Shown: positions 4,867-26,217 of the stretch, in pieces
How the letters are laid out: the number at the start of each line of letters is the position of its first letter
Numbering within the stretch: position 1 is the stretch's first letter
Virus record (IMG/VR): IMGVR_UViG_3300013094_000128
Coordinates: 1-38,704 of that record
Length of the DNA stretch: 38,704 bases
Source: a virus
Reading direction: 5' to 3' (one strand)
The notes under the pieces: generated by a model
Told to the model about the DNA's origin: nothing
Databases searched by the model: none
Seen by the model: only the letters and a program-made list of their open reading frames with translations
Made by a program: the position numbers and the translations under genes

Positions 4867-5312
4867 AATTTCATTGTTTCTTTAATAATCTGAATCGCCT
4901 TCCCATTCTTTAAATCATCAGGAACGCAGCGTATCAACGTCCATCCAGCAGCAGCTGCAGCATTATACTTCTCCATATCAGCGACGAATCCTTTGCCCCG
5001 GGTGTGTCTGCCTCCGCTAAAAACGCCTCCTTCAACTTCCAAAAAAACTTTCTTCGCCGGCCATGCATAATCCATTCGCCATTTGCGATTGGCATGAAAG
5101 CGATATTCAGTTTCAGGCTTTGGTATGCCTTCTATTTCACAAAGAGTTGCAAACAAATCAATTTTAGGTGCTTTCAACACGCTTTTTTGTTTTTTTATTA
5201 CGGTTTTAGGCATTTGTTGCACGCGAGAGGCCGGAGCAAACTTATCGGGTTCGTACTCAATGAAGCCGGCTTCTTTCAATGCTTTCAGCGATATAGTGGC
5301 GCCGCGCTTCAT
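4863..5312 (-). CDS. Vsr/DUF559-like endonuclease candidate
   Basis: About 149 residues from the preferred start. The C-terminal half has a PD-(D/E)XK arrangement: [19 protein letters not shown] with Asp D81, then FLEVEGGVF with E92/E94, and GWTLIRC near the end, as in phage restriction-endonuclease-like proteins related to Vsr and DUF559. I chose the ATG at 5312 because it forms an ATGA overlap with the preceding stop. An in-frame ATG at 5336 would add 8 residues but overlap by 28 bases; a GGAGG lies 12 bases before the chosen start. Confidence 0.65.
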
Positions 5313-6268
5313 GATGTGCAATATCCTCCATGGCATCCCGCTTGTTTATGCCCAAATAATTCAAGTTGTGGGGCTATATCTTTAATTTCACGCATTGAAA
5401 AATCTGATCGTAAAGTACTGTCCTGCATATCTTCAACTACAGCAGCTGCAAGAATGATGCTTTTATTCTGATCATAATTTGCTCTTATCTGCATTGCCTT
5501 TTTCCAAAAACAAAACTGACAGTTACTATCTGTGGCAAATGTTACGTTTTTATCCTGCCAGTATCGCTGCACGTCATTTTGAGTTATTCCAGCTTCAATC
5601 AATGGAAATTCTCCAATCCTGAACGGGATTTCCTGCCAACGATGACGGTGAGGATGGCTGCTGCCTCTATAAAAATCCGGGTTAACAGTGCCAGTCTTTG
5701 ATATATATGGCAGCATAACAGATTTCATATTACCAGGTACCTTATCGCCCATTTTTTGATAAACAAATTCGCAGTGGGTTGAATAAATAAAAGTGTCTTT
5801 AAATGTGTCAGCGCGATCGGCTTCGTCGGCCCGGTACCCAATTCGCATTTTCACCGGTAACCCATGGTACATAAACAAGAATTTGAATATTGGCTCGATC
5901 TTCCACATAGTTGTGCACCAGCGATGCTTTTTATTGGGAAGCATTGATTTACCGAAACTGGATGATTGAAAACCGGGTCCGCGAACCCATACAATCTCAC
6001 GCCCGATATGCTGCTCTAATTCAAACATTGTTTTGATGATGATAGGATCTTCTGCTGTTGCCAAAAACTCATTTTCATGACTGCAATACTTTTGCAGCTT
6101 ATCGTTTACCATTTGCCTTACATGCTGGTCGACTTTAAAAGTCTTGCTGCCGGCATTAGCATTATGATCATCGATGCATACTAAAGCAAATACATCAATA
6201 TCAGCAGGATAATGAGCTGCGATATAAGAAGACGTTTTGCCACCGGAAAGACTGTTTACGGTTTTCAA
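5309..6268 (-). CDS. PP-loop (PAPS reductase-like) ATPase family protein
   Basis: A 319-residue protein with the PP-loop SGGKTSS at residues 8-14, the signature of adenylating enzymes related to PAPS reductase, DndC and tRNA thiolation enzymes. Cysteines at 118 (RWCTT) and C250/C253 (SNCQFCFWKK) could hold a metal or sulfur. Phages often carry such proteins without a proven role; base or nucleotide modification is a possibility but not shown here. It overlaps both neighbours by 4 bases. Confidence 0.75.
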   Translation of the reverse strand: MKTVNSLSGGKTSSYIAAHYPADIDVFALVCIDDHNANAGSKTFKVDQHVRQMVNDKLQKYCSHENEFLATAEDPIIIKTMFELEQHIGREIVWVRGPGFQSSSFGKSMLPNKKHRWCTTMWKIEPIFKFLFMYHGLPVKMRIGYRADEADRADTFKDTFIYSTHCEFVYQKMGDKVPGNMKSVMLPYISKTGTVNPDFYRGSSHPHRHRWQEIPFRIGEFPLIEAGITQNDVQRYWQDKNVTFATDSNCQFCFWKKAMQIRANYDQNKSIILAAAVVEDMQDSTLRSDFSMREIKDIAPQLELFGHKQAGCHGGYCTS

Positions 6269-7739: not shown

Positions 7740-7781
7740 AACCCTTTCGGGTTCAAAAAATAGCAACTTCGTGTTGCTATT
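7740..7781 (-). terminator. intrinsic terminator after the radical SAM gene
   Basis: A perfect 9-bp stem (AATAGCAAC / GTTGCTATT, loop of 5) at 7759-7781 is followed, on the minus strand, by a run of six T. A second small hairpin (AACCC, loop TTTC, GGGTT) lies just beyond it at 7740-7753. The stem includes the last bases of the radical SAM gene. This should end or attenuate leftward transcription, dividing the early operon. Confidence 0.75.
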
Positions 7782-8757
7782 AAAAATTCATAATAACCTG
7801 ATCGGCATTTTTTAACTTAGCACGTGGAGCATAATCTTCCAGTTTAAGTTTTCGCCATAACATGGGTTGATAATAAAACCGTTGCACATCTCGCAAATAC
7901 TGTTCGTTCCAATCGTGCATAATTTTTGGCACTCTTTCGGTAGCATTGAGATTAATGTATGCTTGTGGCAATGGTTCGCAACCTAATTCTATAATCTTTC
8001 TGCACCGATAGATACATTGCTCAATTGGTTCGTGTCCAATCATACAATAAGCCCTTATCTTCTTTTTACTAAACGCCTGAACGGTCTTTACAGCCTCTAT
8101 AAACTGCTTTTCTTCACCAATTTCGTCAAATCCGATACGCCACCATCTTAAGGGTAACTTATCAAATAGCTTTACTGTTTTTTCATCAATACCGTTTGGC
8201 TCAAATCCACTATTACAATCAACCGAACTAATTTTTTCAGACAAATACCTATCTACAATGTATTCTTTGTAATCCCACGGAATTTGAGATAAGTTATTGT
8301 CCATCAATACCTTTGCCGGGTTACTTGCTTTATTAAGTGTAACAGTATGCCCCTCTATTCGCGGAACGGTGCAAAAGAAGCAATTTTGAACACATCCCCT
8401 TGTAAAGTACACCATCTTAAAACGTCCGTAAACAGCTTCTAAATCGCTTTGTATTTTATAATGAGGTTCTATTCCGGTTTCCTTTTTTATGTAATTGTGT
8501 AGCTGTTGCGTACCGCCGCCGCCGATCATAACCATGCGCCCCATGCCGAGAGCTATTTTTGCTTCTTTAATAGCTAATTCAACATCCCATGAAAAAATAA
8601 CTGATAAACAAACCCCATCAAAATCTTGATGAAATATATCTGTAACAGACCTAACCTCTACTGCATTTGACCCGTAAAAAATCTTCATTTTTTCGATTGC
8701 CAAATTGTAATGAGGAAACGAGCAATTAATCAGAAGTATTTTTTTACCATGTATCAT
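7780..8757 (-). CDS. radical SAM protein
   Basis: A 325-residue enzyme. Residues 118-130 read YFTRGCVQNCFFC, the CxxxCxxC motif (C122, C126, C129) that binds the [4Fe-4S] cluster for S-adenosylmethionine cleavage. The first 110 residues resemble a B12-binding-type Rossmann domain (KILLINCSFPHYN, DFDGVCLSVIFSWD, VMIGGGGTQ), as in MiaB/BchE-like radical SAM proteins, though no DxHxxG cobalamin motif is seen. The substrate is unknown; phage radical SAM enzymes may act in nucleotide or nucleic-acid modification. It is preceded by a 50-codon gene with an ATGA overlap. Confidence 0.8.
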   Translation of the reverse strand: MIHGKKILLINCSFPHYNLAIEKMKIFYGSNAVEVRSVTDIFHQDFDGVCLSVIFSWDVELAIKEAKIALGMGRMVMIGGGGTQQLHNYIKKETGIEPHYKIQSDLEAVYGRFKMVYFTRGCVQNCFFCTVPRIEGHTVTLNKASNPAKVLMDNNLSQIPWDYKEYIVDRYLSEKISSVDCNSGFEPNGIDEKTVKLFDKLPLRWWRIGFDEIGEEKQFIEAVKTVQAFSKKKIRAYCMIGHEPIEQCIYRCRKIIELGCEPLPQAYINLNATERVPKIMHDWNEQYLRDVQRFYYQPMLWRKLKLEDYAPRAKLKNADQVIMNF

Positions 8758-10558: not shown

Positions 10559-10942
10559 TCACAGCGTCATAAAATCTGCATAATATTTTTTGAACTCTTC
10601 AGCGCCTTCACGAGCTAATTTGTATGTGCGATATTCAAGGCGGGACCCGACGAGCGAATTCGAGAGACCGTAATCGTAGTCGCCGTACGAAAGACCGAGA
10701 CCCGAAGAGTCTTTGTTATTTTTATAAAACCACGGATAATAATGGCGCTCCGATCCATCGTGTACTGGAGTCCATACTTTGCCATCAATTAAATTTTTGG
10801 CTTTTATGCAGATAGTAAGCCGGTGAAATGCATCTTCAGCTACTAAGTCAGCATCTATTTTGTCTTTCAGCGCAGGGCGCGGGGTAATCCCTAAAAGCTC
10901 ACAAGCTTTCGAATAAGGATTTTGATTTTGGTTATTGCTCAT
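10559..10942 (-). CDS. DGR target protein, distal copy (VR3)
   Basis: A 127-residue protein related to the two targets beside the retroelement: helical N-terminus with ACELLGITP, then HYYPWF (about 67-72), then a variable stretch (residues 79-101) starting SSGLGLSY and ending VGSR, then a conserved helical tail. DNA at 10640-10706 matches the template repeat except at 8 sites, all template adenines. The variable residues here read GDYDYGLSNSL. There is no signal peptide. It sits about 13.6 kb from the template and reverse transcriptase, so it would be diversified in trans. The family role is unknown; a ligand- or protein-binding variable surface is inferred from DGR biology. Confidence 0.85.
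   Translation of the reverse strand: MSNNQNQNPYSKACELLGITPRPALKDKIDADLVAEDAFHRLTICIKAKNLIDGKVWTPVHDGSERHYYPWFYKNNKDSSGLGLSYGDYDYGLSNSLVGSRLEYRTYKLAREGAEEFKKYYADFMTL
10640..10706 (-). repeat. DGR variable repeat VR3
   Basis: 67 bases aligned without gaps to the template repeat at 24220-24286. Eight differences, all where the template coding strand has A. Its 3' boundary in coding sense is the G/C tract GTCGGGTCCCGC followed by CTT, the expected initiation-of-mutagenic-homology position. The 10-base block at 10671-10680 is unchanged from the template. Confidence 0.9.
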
Positions 10943-15712: not shown

Positions 15713-15988
15713 TTATGATTTTTTAACCACTACTTTTCTTGCTTCCCGGATCATGTCAATCTCTACCCGTGCCAGATTAACTAATTCGCGGACATTATCA
15801 CGTACTTCCTTGGCCTGAGGTACATAGTTTGGATTATCTTGCACCTTTTGAATATTATTCATCAGGATTTCTGATAATTGCGAAGCAGTCTGACCAATAA
15901 TAGTCTTGTAGGGTAAATCGGTCTGCCCCATTGCCTGTAAGCCGGAACCTTGTTCCATTACAGCTAATTCATTATTTTGATTTTCCAT
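15713..15988 (-). CDS. hypothetical protein
   Basis: A 91-residue protein, Gln/Asn-rich at the start (MENQNNELAVMEQGSG) and helical after residue 35 (VRDNVRELVNLARVEIDMIREARK). It overlaps the upstream HNH-like gene by 17 bases. Similar small proteins occur in Bacteroidota prophages; the function is unknown. Confidence 0.55.
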   Translation of the reverse strand: MENQNNELAVMEQGSGLQAMGQTDLPYKTIIGQTASQLSEILMNNIQKVQDNPNYVPQAKEVRDNVRELVNLARVEIDMIREARKVVVKKS

Positions 15989-16946
15989 TTTGTTCTTTAA
16001 TTACTCTGCTTAATAATAATTCTCGCCTTTTCAGATCTAATAGTTCTGGCATTTTTTTGAGCGATTCCCGCAGATCAGGACGCCCATGGGTAAGCATACC
16101 GGCTATGTAATTATCTGATAGACCTTGGCTTGATTTGATACTGTTTCGTCTCGAAAGCTCTTCGTTTGTAAGAGCCTCCAGTACTTCAATACCCTGCGGA
16201 TAACTATAAGGATCGTCATTTTTGAAGATGATGTTAATACCAGGACCGACGGGCCCATGTTCTTTTTCCCAAGTGTAACGCGCCCAGTGAACGAAGCGAT
16301 TATTGATTTTGATATATGGCACATACCGGCCGCTCGAAGTTCGCCACATGCGCACGTCACCTTCTTGAAAAGTGCCTTGTATCAACCAGCGATTAACCGG
16401 GCAGTTAGCAAACCTTCCATTCTCAACATTCCGATCGTGAATAGCAGCTATCTGCTCTTTGGTCCTTTTTAATTTAAGATATAACCGCTTTTTTTCAATA
16501 TGCTTAAATGTCCAACTTTTTTTCTTTTGCCATTTTGAATTGAATATTTCGGCCAATTCTTTGTCACCTATCGTCTGGTAATTGTCTTTCAAAAATTGAA
16601 CTTGTTCATCAGTCCAATATTCAAGCTCCATGCGATATAGACCCATGCCATGGCATTTAACCCGGATATAATGAAGACTAAATCCTAATAATTTCGCTAA
16701 CTCCTTATTGGTGTAGGTATTAAAGTTTTCACGGATAAATGCCTCGTGATCTGCCAAATACTCTATTTTAGAAAGGCTTCGGCGTCCGGTTTCTTTTGTT
16801 TTAACCAATCCAAGGCGCCCAGCGCGATATTGCAGTTCCTTCACTTTCCAGCCGGTCATTTTCTCCAGTTCGTGATTAGTATGGTATGGGTACAACTCTT
16901 TAAGCATGGCGTACATTGATGGTGTCCAACTATCTTGTCTAGGCAT
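15972..16946 (-). CDS. DNA-binding protein with SANT/HTH-like repeats and an HNH-like insert
   Basis: 324 residues. Three N-terminal repeats of about 45 residues, each starting with a Trp or aromatic and carrying a helix-turn-helix pattern (WTPSMYAMLKELYPYHTNHE; FIRENFNTYTNKELAKLLG; WTDEQVQFLKDNYQTIGDKE). Then an HNH_3-like stretch (VHWARYTWEKEHGPVGPG, NIIFKNDDPYSYP, ALTNEELSRRN), and a C-terminal YIAGMLTH, LLDLKRRELLLSRVIKE. The catalytic His set is partly degenerate (an H-W-A-R-Y form), so activity is uncertain. The next gene upstream is a paralog lacking the HNH part. Confidence 0.65.
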   Translation of the reverse strand: MPRQDSWTPSMYAMLKELYPYHTNHELEKMTGWKVKELQYRAGRLGLVKTKETGRRSLSKIEYLADHEAFIRENFNTYTNKELAKLLGFSLHYIRVKCHGMGLYRMELEYWTDEQVQFLKDNYQTIGDKELAEIFNSKWQKKKSWTFKHIEKKRLYLKLKRTKEQIAAIHDRNVENGRFANCPVNRWLIQGTFQEGDVRMWRTSSGRYVPYIKINNRFVHWARYTWEKEHGPVGPGINIIFKNDDPYSYPQGIEVLEALTNEELSRRNSIKSSQGLSDNYIAGMLTHGRPDLRESLKKMPELLDLKRRELLLSRVIKEQNGKSK

Positions 16947-17661
16947 TTTTAACCTCCTTTATCGATCTGCTTAATAAAATCTCCTGTCTTTTAAGCTCGA
17001 TTAGTTCCGGGTATTTCATTATTTCCCGTTGCAAATCTTTGTCACGCCATGCGATTAAACTGGCTACATAACTATCATGCAGGTTTTTGGAACTGGAATT
17101 CCTGATAATAGTGTATGACCTGCCGCCGGGTTGTACATGAGCCCATATTATCTTTTCAATCTCTGCTTTGGTGCGATGAAGCCCCAGTAGATATCTTTTT
17201 TTATTAATATGTTTTTTCGTCCAAAGTCTTTTCCGCGGCCAGTTTTTTTGCAGGTTCTCAGCTAATTCAACGTCGCCCATGGTGCGATAATTAGCCACCA
17301 GGTAAGCAGTTTGTTCGTCGTTCCAAGGCATATCCGGATCAAACTTTTTTAACCCTAATTCCCGGGCTTTATTCCTGACAACCGTAAGGCGCAAACCAAG
17401 AGCTTCAGCAAGTTCTTGATTGGTTTTTTGAAAGAAATTTGCCTTTAAAAAAGTTATTCTTTCTTCTGTCCAATCAGTAACATTGGCCATTTTTGCCTTG
17501 CAATCCCGGGTCTTTTTTAGACCCAACCGCTTGCAAGCATATTTAATATTGCTTGTTGTCCAGCCTGTCTGTTCCATGATCACCTGGTTAGGAGTATCAG
17601 GATAAAGGCTAATCAGCAGCGCATCCATTTCAGGCGTAAATATGATAGGCGATCTTCTCAC
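16939..17661 (-). CDS. DNA-binding protein with HTH-like repeats, paralog without HNH
   Basis: 240 residues with the same repeats as the downstream gene (FTPEMDALLISLYPDTPNQ; WTEERITFLKANFFQKTNQE; WNDEQTAYLVANYRTMGDVE) and the same C-terminal part (YVASLIAWRDKDLQREI, ELIELKRQEILLSRSIKE) but with the HNH section missing. Tandem duplication followed by loss or gain of the nuclease is the simple reading. It overlaps its paralog by 8 bases and begins 2 bases after the ParB-like gene. Probable role: sequence-specific DNA binding. Confidence 0.65.
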   Translation of the reverse strand: MRRSPIIFTPEMDALLISLYPDTPNQVIMEQTGWTTSNIKYACKRLGLKKTRDCKAKMANVTDWTEERITFLKANFFQKTNQELAEALGLRLTVVRNKARELGLKKFDPDMPWNDEQTAYLVANYRTMGDVELAENLQKNWPRKRLWTKKHINKKRYLLGLHRTKAEIEKIIWAHVQPGGRSYTIIRNSSSKNLHDSYVASLIAWRDKDLQREIMKYPELIELKRQEILLSRSIKEVKNA

Positions 17662-17663
17662 AG

Positions 17664-19391
17664 TTAAGCTTGTTCTTCTGTTAAATTGTTTTCAAAATCT
17701 TTTATCTTTTGATCAAGCTTAGCTTCTCTGCGCTCACGTATACCGGCCTGATCGGCGGCGATTTTCTGATATTCCGCTAAGGCCCAATCTTTGGTTAAAG
17801 CTTCCGTTACAGCCCCGCTAAGTGAATTAGGAAATATGCTGTTGAAACTGTGGAATACTGCATTGCGGATGATGTAAGCTTTGAGGTAATCAGGTGCTTT
17901 CATTAATGCTTCAAAGTCTTCGAATTCATCCTGATAACTATGCTTTAAATCAAGCTTTTTGCGAATCAATTGGCGTGCTTCATACCCTGCTTTTGACCAT
18001 GCCAGACAAAGCAAAGCGTTGTTTTCTACAGCCGTTAATTTGTCCAGATTCTCGTCCGGTTCTTTGACGAATGATAATTCCTTCAAATGTTCTACCTGGC
18101 GCTTCATTATTTTTTCAGCATCCAGCTCACGACCACGCTTGCGTTTTTGCTTAACATCGTCGATGAAAGTTTTTCTGGCGAGATCTGCCTTGTTCTCTAC
18201 AACTTCAGCTGCAGTTTTTACTACGATATTATGATACCGACCAGAATCAATAAAGAAAGCTTTGACACTTTTTGCTTTATTGGAATTATATTCTTCGAGG
18301 GCAGCCTTTTTTCTGGCCTCAAAATTTTCGTCGGATTCGCCGTGCCATTGATTAAAATCTGGTTTTTGAACCCTAGAAAAGCTATTCCATCCTTTAAGGA
18401 CCGTAAACCCATCTTTTTCAAGCTTTTTTTGTAAAGCATCCGCATTGCCATATCCGTCATTTACTAAAATGACCTTTGGATCTTCGAGAGCTTTTTGAAG
18501 CCTGATTTCAAAATCAGCGTTTGATTTCGCTTCAAAACAGAACCGGTTATGACAAAGTGCCTGATCAGCAGTATCAGGGAATAAAGAATTGTTGTAAGCA
18601 GAATTTTGTGGACAAACCGTACAACGTGAGCAAATAAATTGCTTGCCTTCAAAGTGAGCATCGGTATTAAATGGCGCATCTTTTAGTTTACGCTCAGTGT
18701 TGCTGCTTAGCCAGCTCTTAAGTTCTTTTAATGTGCCGGCGCCGCCGCCGTATCGGTAAGAATATCTGTCGGTAAACCATAGGTTTTGGCTTTGTTCATC
18801 AATTCTGCTGAGCAGCTCGGCATGCCCGATATGTAAATCGTTGGTTTTAAAGATTTCTTTCAGCTCAGGCACTAATTTAGAAAGCTGCAGCCGGCGAATT
18901 ACAAAAGCATCATTTTTACCAACCTTGGCAGCGATATCGGGTACCTGGTAATTCATTTTTGCAATCATAAATTCAAAAGCATCTGCTTCTTCCAGCGGAT
19001 GAACATCCTTACGTTGCAGGTTTTCGGTAATCATTACCTCTAATGCTTCTTGGTCAGAAAGTTCCCGTATGCTGGCCGGAATGCTGGTTAAACCTGCTTT
19101 TTCAGCTCCATGGTATCGCCGCTCGCCGCACACCATTTCATATTTTGCCTGATGGGGATTAGATTTGTTCGGCTCCAACGGTCTAATCGTAACCGGTTGA
19201 ATTACCCCAAGTTTTTTTATTGATTCAGCAAGCTCGTTCAATTCAGCTTCATTGATTGTCTTGCGTGGATTTAAAATGCTAAGGCATATATCTGAAAGCT
19301 GAACAAATTGCAAAGATGGCGCCTCTTTCGGTGGGACGTCTGTCAGTAACGCATCGATGCTTTTTCCGTTTTTGTTTTTTACTACTGTCAT
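17664..19391 (-). CDS. ParB/Spo0J-like nuclease-domain protein with a cysteine cluster
   Basis: 575 residues, much longer than a plasmid ParB. The ParB N-terminal domain shows LNPRK (40-44), LGVIQPVTIRP (61-71), CGERRYHGAE (88-97) and ENLQRKDVHPLEEA (123-136); a KorB-like HTH follows (VPDIAAKVGKNDAFVIRRL). Next is a cysteine cluster C254, C257, C260, C280, C285 (CSRCTVC, then CHNRFC), a likely zinc site. The remaining 290 residues are charged and helical. Such long ParB-like proteins occur in phages and mobile elements, perhaps in partition, transcription or CTP-gated DNA binding; the precise job here is unknown. Confidence 0.75.
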   Translation of the reverse strand: MTVVKNKNGKSIDALLTDVPPKEAPSLQFVQLSDICLSILNPRKTINEAELNELAESIKKLGVIQPVTIRPLEPNKSNPHQAKYEMVCGERRYHGAEKAGLTSIPASIRELSDQEALEVMITENLQRKDVHPLEEADAFEFMIAKMNYQVPDIAAKVGKNDAFVIRRLQLSKLVPELKEIFKTNDLHIGHAELLSRIDEQSQNLWFTDRYSYRYGGGAGTLKELKSWLSSNTERKLKDAPFNTDAHFEGKQFICSRCTVCPQNSAYNNSLFPDTADQALCHNRFCFEAKSNADFEIRLQKALEDPKVILVNDGYGNADALQKKLEKDGFTVLKGWNSFSRVQKPDFNQWHGESDENFEARKKAALEEYNSNKAKSVKAFFIDSGRYHNIVVKTAAEVVENKADLARKTFIDDVKQKRKRGRELDAEKIMKRQVEHLKELSFVKEPDENLDKLTAVENNALLCLAWSKAGYEARQLIRKKLDLKHSYQDEFEDFEALMKAPDYLKAYIIRNAVFHSFNSIFPNSLSGAVTEALTKDWALAEYQKIAADQAGIRERREAKLDQKIKDFENNLTEEQA

Positions 19392-22867: not shown

Positions 22868-23158
22868 TTATGTGAATTTTATGATGTTGTTTTCTTTTAC
22901 TATTATGGCCTTAAATGGAAATTCAGGCACCTGCTTTATTTGTTCAATTAACCTGCTGAAACTTCCAAAGCATACATAACGTGATTCTTGTATAGAAAAC
23001 TGAAGATGAAGACATAAACCCTTTCCTTCGTATTTACTATCTGTAATTTTGTATGCTTCGACCGTAATCTCTCGGTTAAGTATTTTATCAATTTTTATTT
23101 TATCGCCTACCAGGTAGTCCTGTTTAAGTTCGATATTGAATTCGTTGAAATTTTTCAT
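22868..23158 (-). CDS. small hypothetical protein downstream of the DGR reverse transcriptase
   Basis: 96 residues from the ATG at 23158 (MKNFNEFNIELKQDYLVGDK). An in-frame ATG at 23191 would deepen the overlap with the reverse transcriptase gene from 35 to 68 bases, so I prefer the later one. It is a beta-rich protein (ITVEAYKITDSKYEGKGLCL, PFKAIIVKENNIIKFT) of a type common in phage operons. Because it is coupled to the reverse transcriptase it could be a DGR accessory, but it does not look like the helical Avd. Confidence 0.55.
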   Translation of the reverse strand: MKNFNEFNIELKQDYLVGDKIKIDKILNREITVEAYKITDSKYEGKGLCLHLQFSIQESRYVCFGSFSRLIEQIKQVPEFPFKAIIVKENNIIKFT

Positions 23159-24104
23159 TAAATAGTTTTTTGATAAGGTGACTACTATCACAGTGCTTTG
23201 CCCAGCCCAGGTAAGCAGCTATCGAAGCGCGCGGTGCATTAGCTGCAACCTTACGTGCAAAATTCTTTTTGATGCTTTTTCTTAAAAGAGTGTGGGTATG
23301 GTACATACGGTATCCGACAAAATCAATACCGCGCGATGCCACTGGGAAAACCTGATAGTTGCCTTTAACAGTTAATTTTAAATTGTTTGTTAGGTAGCTG
23401 CGGATATCTTCAAGCAGCTGGTGAAGGTATTGCTTGCTTGGTGCCAGGATTACTAAATCATCAGCATAGCGGAAATAGTATTTTACGCTTTTATCCTCTT
23501 TGATCCAGTGATCAAAATAAGTAAGGTAAAAATTTGCAAAGTACTGGCTTAAATAATTACCAATCGGGATGCCTAGGGCGCTTTCAATAATCTCGTCCAA
23601 AAACCAAAGCAGATCCTGGTCCTTTATTTTTCTTCGCAGCAGCTGCTTTAGTATCGCATGATCAACGCTCGGGTAAAACTTTTTGATGTCAAGTTTTAAG
23701 CAATAGATAGTACCAGATACATCTTTTAAAGCTTTCTCAACAGCCTTCTTTGCAGCGTGGATTCCGCGGCCTTTGATGCAGCTAAAAGTATCGGCAGTAA
23801 ATGTGGATACAAAAACCGGTTCCAAAATATTCATAGCAGCATGGTGAGCAATACGATCGGGGAAATAAGGAAGTCCGTAAACGTCGCGCTCTTTCGGCTC
23901 ATAAACCTTAAACATCTTATAGGTTGATGTTTTATAGGTTTTATCCTTTAACATTTGGTGTAAGGCAATGATATTACCCTCGCGGTTTTTATCATGTAAT
24001 TTAACCCCATATTGATGCAGCTTTCCTTTGCGGGCGATATCATCGGCCAACATTAGGTTTTCGATGCTGTAGACCTGAGAGTATAAGTTATTTAATCTTT
24101 TCAT
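23124..24104 (-). CDS. diversity-generating retroelement reverse transcriptase
   Basis: 326 residues, the usual DGR size. RT motifs in order: YKMFKVYEPKERDVYGLPYF (motif 1/2 region), CLKLDIKKFYPSVDH (motif 3, D139), GIPIGNYLSQYFANFYL (motif 4, 179-195), FRYADDLVIL (motif 5, catalytic YADD 213-216), GIDFVGYRMY (motif 7, 259-268), and a thumb with YLGWAKHCDS. The IGxxxSQ form in motif 4, rather than QGxxxSP, is the known hallmark of DGR enzymes. It lies 115 bases downstream of the template repeat. Role: copies the template RNA, misincorporating at adenines, to make mutagenised cDNA that replaces the variable repeats. Confidence 0.95.
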   Translation of the reverse strand: MKRLNNLYSQVYSIENLMLADDIARKGKLHQYGVKLHDKNREGNIIALHQMLKDKTYKTSTYKMFKVYEPKERDVYGLPYFPDRIAHHAAMNILEPVFVSTFTADTFSCIKGRGIHAAKKAVEKALKDVSGTIYCLKLDIKKFYPSVDHAILKQLLRRKIKDQDLLWFLDEIIESALGIPIGNYLSQYFANFYLTYFDHWIKEDKSVKYYFRYADDLVILAPSKQYLHQLLEDIRSYLTNNLKLTVKGNYQVFPVASRGIDFVGYRMYHTHTLLRKSIKKNFARKVAANAPRASIAAYLGWAKHCDSSHLIKKLFNEKFQRIQYRT

Positions 24105-24322
24105 TGCCTTTGTGTTATTAGGTCGTGTTCCCCACTAAATAGCGGGTACCAACGCCCTTTTTAAACCTGTAATTTTTTGCCATGCTGGCAGGGTTTGCCC
24201 CGGGTAATATTTTACAATTGCGGGACCCGACGTGCGAATTCGAGTTATCGTAATCGTAGTCGTTGTACGAAAGACTGAGACCTGAACCATCCGCCAGCTT
24301 TCCCGAAGCACAACCTTATCTT
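24105..24322 (-). ncRNA. DGR template RNA region (upstream flank, TR, structured spacer)
   Basis: A 218-base non-coding gap between the proximal target gene and the reverse transcriptase, containing the template repeat. Downstream of the TR in the transcript sense lie a hairpin TGCCA-GCA-TGGCA followed by a run of A, and a hairpin near 24132-24147 (CCCGCTAT / TTAGTGGG, one G-T pair). In the Bordetella phage DGR the flanks of the TR RNA are needed for binding and priming, so this spacer likely has that job. The transcript ends are not defined from sequence. Confidence 0.65.
24220..24290 (-). repeat. DGR template repeat TR
   Basis: Core of 67 bases (24220-24286) shared with three variable repeats, extending to 24290 with the proximal one. 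In coding sense it would read GSGLSLSYNDYDYDNSNSHV, rich in AAC, GAC and TAC codons, as typical templates are; C or T in the third position prevents stop codons after adenine mutagenesis. It contains 15 adenines in the core (coding sense); 14 differ in at least one variable repeat. The 3' side is the G/C tract GTCGGGTCCCGC followed by AAT, where the variable repeats have CTT (IMH* versus IMH). Confidence 0.95.
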
Positions 24323-24712
24323 TTATGCTTTGATCAAAAACAGATCAGCATACAACCCGGTAAATTGCTTGCCGGCATATCGGGCGAGGTCCGAGGATGC
24401 GAACGAAAGGCGGGACCCGACGCGCGAAGTCGAGCGAACGCAACCGAAGCCGTGGTACGAAAGACCGAGACCCGAACCATTATCATCTTCCATATCGAAC
24501 CATGGATAATATTTGTATTCACGGTTATTTTTCCAGTCAGGTGTCCAGCCCTCGTTAAGCGCCTCGGCGATAACAGAAAGCTTGTACTGGGCGATTTGAG
24601 CGGCCTGATCTTTCTCTCTTAATTTTGATACATCAGGTAATGCTGCAGGATCCAATCCTAATGCCTGGCAGGCATCTTCAAATGATTTTATTTTGTCTGT
24701 GATATTGCTCAT
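24323..24712 (-). CDS. DGR target protein, proximal copy (VR1)
   Basis: 129 residues. Helical N-terminus (ITDKIKSFEDACQALGLDP, then YKLSVIAEALNEGWTPDW), KYYPWF at 67-72, variable stretch at about 78-101 (GSGLGLSYHGFGC, VRSTSRVGSR), and a helical C-terminus (SSDLARYAGKQFTGLYADLF). The variable DNA 24410-24480 differs from the template at 12 core sites, all template adenines. There is no signal or membrane segment, so it is probably cytosolic or a small virion component. I recall this build in Bacteroidota DGR-associated phage proteins; the ligand is unknown. The start lies 2 bases after the stop of the next target gene. Confidence 0.9.
   Translation of the reverse strand: MSNITDKIKSFEDACQALGLDPAALPDVSKLREKDQAAQIAQYKLSVIAEALNEGWTPDWKNNREYKYYPWFDMEDDNGSGLGLSYHGFGCVRSTSRVGSRLSFASSDLARYAGKQFTGLYADLFLIKA
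24410..24480 (-). repeat. DGR variable repeat VR1
   Basis: Gap-free match to the template repeat over 71 bases with 12 core differences (plus strand: T to C seven times, T to G three times, T to A twice), each at a template adenine in coding sense. No change is found at any other template base. Confidence 0.93.
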
Positions 24713-24714
24713 GG

Positions 24715-25206
24715 CTAATTTTTTAAATTGTTGCTGTATTCGTTGTAGATATCGATAAACTCCCGGCCAACATACTCAGCGAGTTCGCTGGACCGTAAAA
24801 CAAGGCGGGACCCGACGCGCGAACACGAGTCAGCGCAATCGCAGCCGTAGTACGAAAGACCGAGACCCGAAGAGTTAGCCTTAAACCAAGGGTAATATTT
24901 AGCCTCTTGGGTATTGCGGTAATCAGGCACCCAACCCTCGTTAAGTGCCTCAATGATCGTGGCCAGTTTAACGTAGGCGTTTACGCTGATCTTAAAGTCA
25001 TCGTCGGTAGATGATGGATAAGGCAATAATTCCTCAGGGTCAACGCCAAGCTCAGCGCAGGCGTCCGAAAATGATTTAATGCGGTCGGTAATTTTGCCGC
25101 TAAATACGTCCTGTCCCAGCAAATCGGTTAACAGGGCTTTACCCTTGGCATCGGCATTTTTAAAGGCTGTCAGGGCATTTTTTTTGTTGATAGTGATTTC
25201 ACTCAT
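24715..25206 (-). CDS. DGR target protein, second copy (VR2)
   Basis: 163 residues. Compared with its neighbour it has about 35 extra N-terminal residues (NKKNALTAFKNADAKGKALL), then the same plan: ITDRIKSFSDACAELGVDP, ATIIEALNEGWVPDY, KYYPWF (103-108), variable stretch 112-134 (SSGLGLSYYGCDC, ADSCSRVGSR) and a helical tail (SSELAEYVGREFIDIYNEYS). Its VR carries 11 core differences from the template, all at adenines. The three Cys in the variable stretch (C122, C124, C128) arose from template Tyr/Tyr/Asn codons. Tandem duplication of target genes is evident. Confidence 0.9.
   Translation of the reverse strand: MSEITINKKNALTAFKNADAKGKALLTDLLGQDVFSGKITDRIKSFSDACAELGVDPEELLPYPSSTDDDFKISVNAYVKLATIIEALNEGWVPDYRNTQEAKYYPWFKANSSGLGLSYYGCDCADSCSRVGSRLVLRSSELAEYVGREFIDIYNEYSNNLKN
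24805..24871 (-). repeat. DGR variable repeat VR2
   Basis: 67-base gap-free match to the template repeat with 11 differences, all at template adenines (plus strand T to C eight times, T to A twice, T to G once). It shares a further GAAGAGT flank with the distal VR3, whereas VR1 shares GAACCAT with the template. Confidence 0.93.
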
Positions 25207-25479: not shown

Positions 25480-26217
25480 TCAGAAAGGTATTTTGTTAAA
25501 TGGTATAGTCATGTTTTTCTCAGCGATGTGGACGTTCTTTAACGTCAGCTGCTCAACCTCTTTTTTAAAAGCAGCTGCATCACTATTGCTATCCGATAAA
25601 TGGATCAGCACAATGTTATTTACCGCCCTCAGATCATTTGCGTCCAGAAATTCCATACAGGTATCCAGGTTCATATGCGATTGCAATACACGGTTTCGCA
25701 GAAACTCTGGTGATTCGCCATTACGGACCTTTTTGTCCAAAATCGCCTGGCTGTAGTTTGCTTCGATTAAAATGTTGTTCAAACCTGGAAAGGTAAATGG
25801 GCAATAGTAGCTGTCTGTTATAAACACTATTCTGCCGCATTCTTCGTGTTCAATTAAAAAGTTAAATGGCTCCCGGCAATCATGCACTGCTTCAAACGGT
25901 TTAACTTTAAAACTGCCTATCTTTACCTGCTTTTCACATTCCAGGGCGTGAATCCTGTGGCTGGTTACTCCCATACCTTCAATTGTTCCTGCAGATGCGT
26001 AAACATTCATTCCGCATGCAATCACATCCTTCACCGCCGAGCAATGGTCCTTATGCTCATGTGACACCAGCACGCCAACCGCTTGGCTGAGGTCGAAATT
26101 AAGGGCCTGCTTAATCTGCTGTATTTTCACGCCGCACTCAATGATTAGGACTTCGTTTGCAGCTACAAGCAAATAGCAATTGCCGGCGGATGAAGAGGAT
26201 ATGATCTTTAGTATCAT
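25480..26217 (-). CDS. metallo-beta-lactamase-fold hydrolase
   Basis: 245 residues. It starts LKIISSSSAGNCYLL, a beginning typical of YycJ/WalJ-like MBL proteins, with the metal motif SHEHKDH (HxHxDH, residues 52-58), a mid His (VHDCREPF), ITDSYY with the bridging Asp, and a late HLSD. YycJ-like enzymes are DNA exonucleases or phosphodiesterases. Here it follows RecT with a 1-base overlap, the place where phages often have the exonuclease partner of an annealase; so a recombination nuclease role is a reasonable inference. Confidence 0.78.
   Translation of the reverse strand: MILKIISSSSAGNCYLLVAANEVLIIECGVKIQQIKQALNFDLSQAVGVLVSHEHKDHCSAVKDVIACGMNVYASAGTIEGMGVTSHRIHALECEKQVKIGSFKVKPFEAVHDCREPFNFLIEHEECGRIVFITDSYYCPFTFPGLNNILIEANYSQAILDKKVRNGESPEFLRNRVLQSHMNLDTCMEFLDANDLRAVNNIVLIHLSDSNSDAAAFKKEVEQLTLKNVHIAEKNMTIPFNKIPF

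Follow-up and report, generated by a model that had tools for sequence, protein, structure and literature searches.

The window and its genes

The virus record IMGVR_UViG_3300013094_000128 is a 38.7-kb linear piece that ends within packaging genes; its whole stretch of 38,704 nucleotides was analysed and is referred to here as the window. It encodes a tyrosine integrase, a CI-like repressor, RecT, an SbcC-like protein, a DnaB helicase and a terminase, a combination that marks it as a temperate phage or prophage fragment. The virus is temperate, with Bacteroidota-type bacteria as hosts. An exact scan of IMG/VR with the masked template repeat returned no close relative of this phage.

Between a SNF2-type helicase gene and the RecT/SbcC genes lies a cassette with the parts of a diversity-generating retroelement (DGR), all on the minus strand. 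It comprises target gene 2 (24715-25206, 163 aa), target gene 1 (24323-24712, 129 aa), a non-coding template repeat (TR; 24216-24290), a spacer (24105-24219), the gene for a reverse transcriptase (RT; 23124-24104, 326 aa) and, directly after it, a conserved accessory gene (22868-23191) that is not avd. A third target gene (10559-10942, 127 aa, minus strand) lies 13.5 kb off, near the DnaB helicase gene. The interval 24220-25206, to which the first-pass annotation had assigned the element, holds the TR and the first two targets but misses the RT, the accessory gene and the remote third target.

Other minus-strand genes of the window include one for a metallo-beta-lactamase-fold hydrolase of phrog_392 (25480-26217), which adjoins RecT and has a very weak Pfam match to Apyc1 (anti-Pycsar; E=0.034, under the cut-off). 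PAPS-reductase-like and radical-SAM genes (5309-6268 and 7780-8757) are possible moron or DNA-modification genes, and PAPS-reductase families are also found beside the cassette in some relatives. A ParB-like protein (17664-19391) is followed by two HNH/D5-like regulator genes (15972-16946 and 16939-17661), with matches to the same PHROG families.

Template and variable repeats

Each target gene contains a variable repeat (VR) that matches the TR: VR1 at 24406-24480 (core 24410-24476) in target gene 1, VR2 at 24802-24871 (core 24805-24871) in target gene 2 and VR3 at 10637-10706 (core 10640-10706) in target gene 3. The ungapped comparison uses a 67-base core of the TR (24220-24286), and the matched region is slightly wider, for VR1 the entire 24216-24290. 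Scanning both strands of the window yielded these three VRs and no fourth copy of the TR. Since the window stops in packaging genes, the phage's own tail genes may still hold an additional VR.

The TR core differs from VR1, VR2 and VR3 at 12, 11 and 8 positions, respectively, and all 31 differences fall on template adenines, which account for 15 of the 67 bases. An ungapped recount thereby reproduces the figures of the first-pass annotation, including the types of change (A>G 20, A>T 6, A>C 5). Its view that such a pattern is unlikely to arise by chance is borne out by hypergeometric probabilities of 8e-11, 1e-9 and 1e-6 for VR1, VR2 and VR3.

Not all of these differences carry the same information. 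At core offsets 3 and 10, near the 5' edge, the template has an adenine, yet all three VRs have G. Fixed edges are likewise seen in the relatives, where a template A corresponds to G (at the 3' edge, G or T) in every VR; the usual TR reads CAG.TC.CACCTATGC and the corresponding VRs CGG.TC.CGCCTTTGC. Near-identical phages show no differences at the edge positions. Because the edge G is constant across VRs and relatives, 6 of the 31 differences are best read as markers of the edge of the exchanged tract and not as repeated mutations, which leaves 25 informative differences at 12 positions in the window. At the 3' edge, TR and VRs part only after GTCCCGC, where the TR continues with AATTG and the VRs with CTT. 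On the 3' side, the edge markers are IMH-like. The hypermutable tract spans about 35-40 bases, and at most of its sites the three VRs of the window carry different bases.

Reverse transcriptase and spacer RNA

Reverse transcriptases of the DGR type are recognised by an IGxxxSQ motif, where others have QGxxxSP, together with the catalytic YxDD motif. The RT of the window is an uninterrupted frame with IGNYLSQ and YADD, in line with the IGxxxSQ enzyme first annotated beside the repeats. It matches RVT_1 (E=3e-17) and phrog_1423 (E=1.5e-124), and its best PDB chain in a phmmer search is the Bordetella DGR RT (8ub7, E=2e-45), with the runner-up at 1.5e-15. Judged by its motif and its best structural relative, the enzyme is of the DGR type.

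The spacer between TR and RT is strongly conserved in the relatives, with a length of 100-120 nt, and is a structured RNA 3' of the TR. It contains two conserved, covarying helices on the minus strand, a hairpin at 24178-24190 and a second stem at 24121-24157. RNAalifold gave the first helix only; the second was picked out by eye and counted afterwards. Across both helices, 96.9% of the cells are paired and 32 double-change cells are found versus 3.8 in shuffles; none of 500 shuffles reached the covariation score, and slid registers all scored far lower. Despite this strong covariation, the spacer does not stand out when it is folded as a single sequence (z -0.8). No match was found in Rfam. 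In BPP-1, the spacer folds and primes cDNA synthesis (PMC12875486), and loading of the RT by the spacer RNA is predicted here.

A conserved accessory gene after the RT

The accessory gene encodes 107 aa when read from a GTG; a likely ATG start is located at 23158, so that the gene overlaps the end of the RT by about 35 nt. It is conserved in 44 of 45 long relatives. Its product is basic (pI 8.9) and could be assigned to no Pfam or NCBIfam family. The predicted structure (pLDDT 86) is mostly beta, with a weak likeness to nucleic-acid binders of the OB-fold type (HIN, RPA, PrgE) at E-values above 0.05.

Avd is the accessory protein of most, though not all, DGRs and is not obligatory. The Avd family (PF22296) was found neither in the window nor in 41 of 42 relatives. 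The first-pass annotation had called the element complete. This holds in so far as every part conserved in the lineage is present; the canonical Avd is absent, and another conserved gene stands in its place. In one relative (G037, the record of L079), a clear Avd (bAvd, E=4e-26) is encoded at 366-677, at the contig end and some 12 kb (approximate) away from the cassette, which itself has no Avd; it possibly belongs to another DGR of that phage.

When loci were searched with a profile of the accessory gene itself, independently of the RT, 75 of 75 checked viral loci had the RT directly upstream, with an overlap of about 40 nt. Across 301 whole genomes from a single bacterial family, the gene occurs in 13 places, each time beside an RT, and four genomes that have targets and no RT do not contain it. 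ANMV-1 (E=1e-20) and vir525 (E=7e-23), two archaeal viruses with other target proteins, likewise have a homologue directly behind the RT. This tight linkage argues against the idea that the gene is a passenger that happens to lie behind the RT and takes no part in the DGR. No homologue was found in the inspected crAss, Perkons, Versailles and LBR48 regions. A passenger would fit the crAss and Firmicutes-phage DGRs, which lack the gene even though their RTs are related. DGRs without this helper do exist, for example in crAss phages, and the helper is therefore not required by all related RTs. Overall, a passenger gene is improbable.

A role of the protein as a helper of the RT is instead quite likely, and its charge and predicted fold suggest a nucleic-acid-binding cofactor that replaces Avd. 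More distant helpers match 0.3-1.2 kb after the RT in seven further loci. They are found in DGRs without targets of the phrog_11581 type, and the helper family is thus wider than the target family. A survey by Wu et al. in 2018 reportedly named a conserved hypothetical DGR accessory gene. PMC10053308 credits that study with an accessory gene that has no Pfam assignment, and the helper described here may be that family.

The target proteins

All three targets are paralogues of phrog_11581, a family annotated without function, which is matched by 100 of 102 relatives. They contain no stop codons and no hydrophobic segment, and their pI is mostly acidic. The VR is internal to the protein and is followed by a median of 26 codons. 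BPP-1 has a hairpin after its VR (PMC3240598); here, perfect stems of at least 7 accompany 3 of 125 VRs, which is similar to the upstream control and to shuffles.

The C-type lectin fold is usual for DGR targets. For the proteins of this lineage, no Pfam or NCBIfam family was assigned, a search of PDB sequences with the target profile returned nothing notable, and neither a tail family nor a C-type lectin family is prominent among the matches of 102 targets. An AlphaFold2 model built with 102 sequences is helical and confident outside the VR and uncertain within it (pLDDT ~50). This model, with its poorly modelled VR part, found no fold match in the PDB, and a viral fold library returned uncharacterised phage proteins only. 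A C-type lectin fold is thus not recognised in the model, although the VR part could still have one.

In four relatives, an extra target copy lies several kb from the RT, as with the third target of the window. Four bacterial genomes carry phrog_11581-like genes with no RT or helper nearby within the 3.4-kb stretches inspected; these are possible orphans after loss of the DGR.

Activity of the cassette in relatives

Dozens of viral contigs carry the same cassette, and it is also present in the prophages of many Bacteroidota. In all, 81 RT loci were searched for repeat pairs with a base-neutral score. A first set of pooled base counts had been set aside, as its pair finder favours mismatches at A, and the counts were redone base-neutrally. 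A TR/VR pair is located upstream of the RT in 75 of the 81 loci. In the pairs found with the base-neutral score, 60% of template A is mismatched, versus 4-6% of C, G and T.

Near-identical phages show where change occurs. Between L024 and L025 there are 11 base differences over about 2.5 kb, each of them in VR2 at template A; the two are otherwise identical across the RT, the TR and about 1.5 kb upstream. Five further relatives differ almost solely inside VR1, VR2 or VR3, each independently. The first-pass annotation had proposed looking in related phage genomes for variation confined to template-adenine sites beside a constant template, and this is what the relatives display: 45 of 47 changes are at template A, there are none in the TR, and the RT and flanks are constant. 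One relative, L036, has 7 TR differences; they are situated at a contig end and are probably due to an assembly join.

These comparisons weigh decisively against ordinary duplication of the targets followed by divergence under positive selection, without reverse transcription. The three targets are indeed paralogues, as such a history would have it. Their differences from the TR, however, are found only at template A and the TR is non-coding; outside the VRs the paralogues have diverged far more than the VRs themselves, and phages that differ in their VRs only contradict this explanation directly. Its probability is next to nil.

Change confined to VRs in near-identical relatives indicates that the cassette is active in its lineage. 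For the phage of the window itself, activity follows from the intact parts and the three mutually different VRs. The lack of a close relative that might reveal current change leaves some room for an old, disused DGR whose VR differences are relics, but the intact RT and helper frames, the targets free of stops, the VRs that differ at most sites and the demonstrable activity of the same cassette in relatives make this very unlikely.

Proposed mechanism

Mutagenic retrohoming is the sole explanation that fits all of the data, and the locus is, with high confidence, a working DGR that operates as in BPP-1. By analogy with the Bordetella DGR, the TR and the folded 3' spacer would be transcribed into RNA. 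The RT, probably helped by the small basic protein, would copy this RNA into cDNA with random incorporation opposite template A. Any of the three paralogous targets could then take up the cDNA in place of the central 35-40 bases of its VR, with the exchange stopping at the fixed bases of the VR ends. This would yield a repertoire of proteins that share a conserved scaffold and vary around a dozen positions given by template adenines.

Genomic location and possible role of the targets

In the window, two targets adjoin the cassette. In about 40 relatives, DNA transposition protein, ATPase, exonuclease, primase and RecT families are found upstream of the cassette, and methyltransferases and helicases downstream, joined by terminase in a few. 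RecT and SbcC were considered as parts of the system and dropped, as their homologues flank the cassette in just 2-3 of 45 long relatives. Since the neighbours are not conserved, the cassette has moved among unrelated phages, yet it stayed in the early module. Among 18 relatives of at least 40 kb, every VR lies in the small target genes (two per record, three in two records) and none in tail genes. The largest ORFs of these long relatives, many of them tape-measure proteins, are 7-38 kb from the cassette and contain no VR.

Phage DGRs are understood chiefly as changers of receptor binding. In a real DGR of this kind, the targets could be virion components, such as adhesins or tail-tip decorations, that enable a tropism switch like that of BPP-1. 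Most of the phage DGR targets known so far are receptor-binding proteins of the tail (PMC8144416, PMC10743442), and the fold of the VR region could not be modelled. The targets of this lineage are nevertheless only 127-163 aa long. In unrelated phages their genes are surrounded by those for replication, recombination and transposition, far from the VR-free largest ORFs, and their matches are not dominated by tail or lectin families. A virion role is thus unlikely, if less so than the other alternatives considered above.

Their position in an early/replication module remote from tail genes, their small size and the lack of VRs in tail genes make an intracellular action likelier than one as tail adhesins. 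Signal peptides do not help to decide, since virion proteins lack them too and their absence is no proof of an intracellular role. On balance, we favour with moderate confidence that the targets act within the host cell, with variable host or defence factors among their conceivable partners. If so, these early binders would form a changing set directed against host factors or defences. A broader proposal combines the two unusual features: the lineage would vary small, early-expressed, intracellular proteins without a lectin fold and would use, together with some archaeal viruses, an OB-fold-like cofactor in place of Avd. This combined proposal is put forward tentatively.

A lineage that diversifies only small replication/early-region proteins makes it directly testable what else phages must vary. 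The gene after the RT, which archaeal viruses share and which each independent search found linked to the RT, is a specific candidate for a DGR cofactor that works independently of Avd; the covarying spacer is the RNA partner to test with it. The compact cassette could also serve for targeted protein diversification.

Relation to known DGRs

According to Benler et al. 2021 (PMC8008677), the known phage DGR targets were structural, and that study described a non-structural one in Quimbyvirus. The survey by Roux et al. 2021 (PMC8144416) found that viral DGR targets are mostly tail-like. Measured against these accounts, a lineage with all targets outside the tail module is unusual; it may belong to the 'unknown' target clusters of the latter survey.

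With the DGR of BPP-1 (mtd, avd, TR, brt), the cassette shares A-specific TR/VR differences, a homologous IGxxxSQ RT (8ub7), a structured spacer RNA between TR and RT, and a fixed, IMH-like 3' edge of the VR. It differs from BPP-1 in lacking Avd, in having another accessory gene after the RT and two to three targets, and in the nature of these targets, which are small, encoded in the early module and without a recognised C-type lectin fold, with an internal VR that has no adjacent perfect-stem hairpin above control.

Quimbyvirus is likewise a Bacteroidota phage whose DGR has a target outside the structural module (PMC8008677). Its two targets, one structural and one non-structural, are both C-type lectins, whereas all targets found here are located in the early region, belong to one family and have no recognised lectin fold. 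ANMV-1 (Paul et al. 2015, PMC4372165) and vir525, both archaeal viruses, also have a homologue of the accessory gene immediately behind the RT. The target of ANMV-1, in contrast, is AdtA, a long, tail-proximal protein with an Mtd-like lectin fold (PMC4372165), and belongs to another family. The RTs of the crAss-like DGRs (cr55_1, LMMB, cr60_1) are 48-58% identical to that of the window; their targets, where annotated, are of the tail type and lie beside the RT, and the three inspected regions contain no homologue of the accessory gene.

The DGR of the window is of a known kind. What is novel is the union of early-module targets, in which no lectin fold was recognised, with a cassette that lacks Avd and carries a conserved accessory gene linked to the RT.
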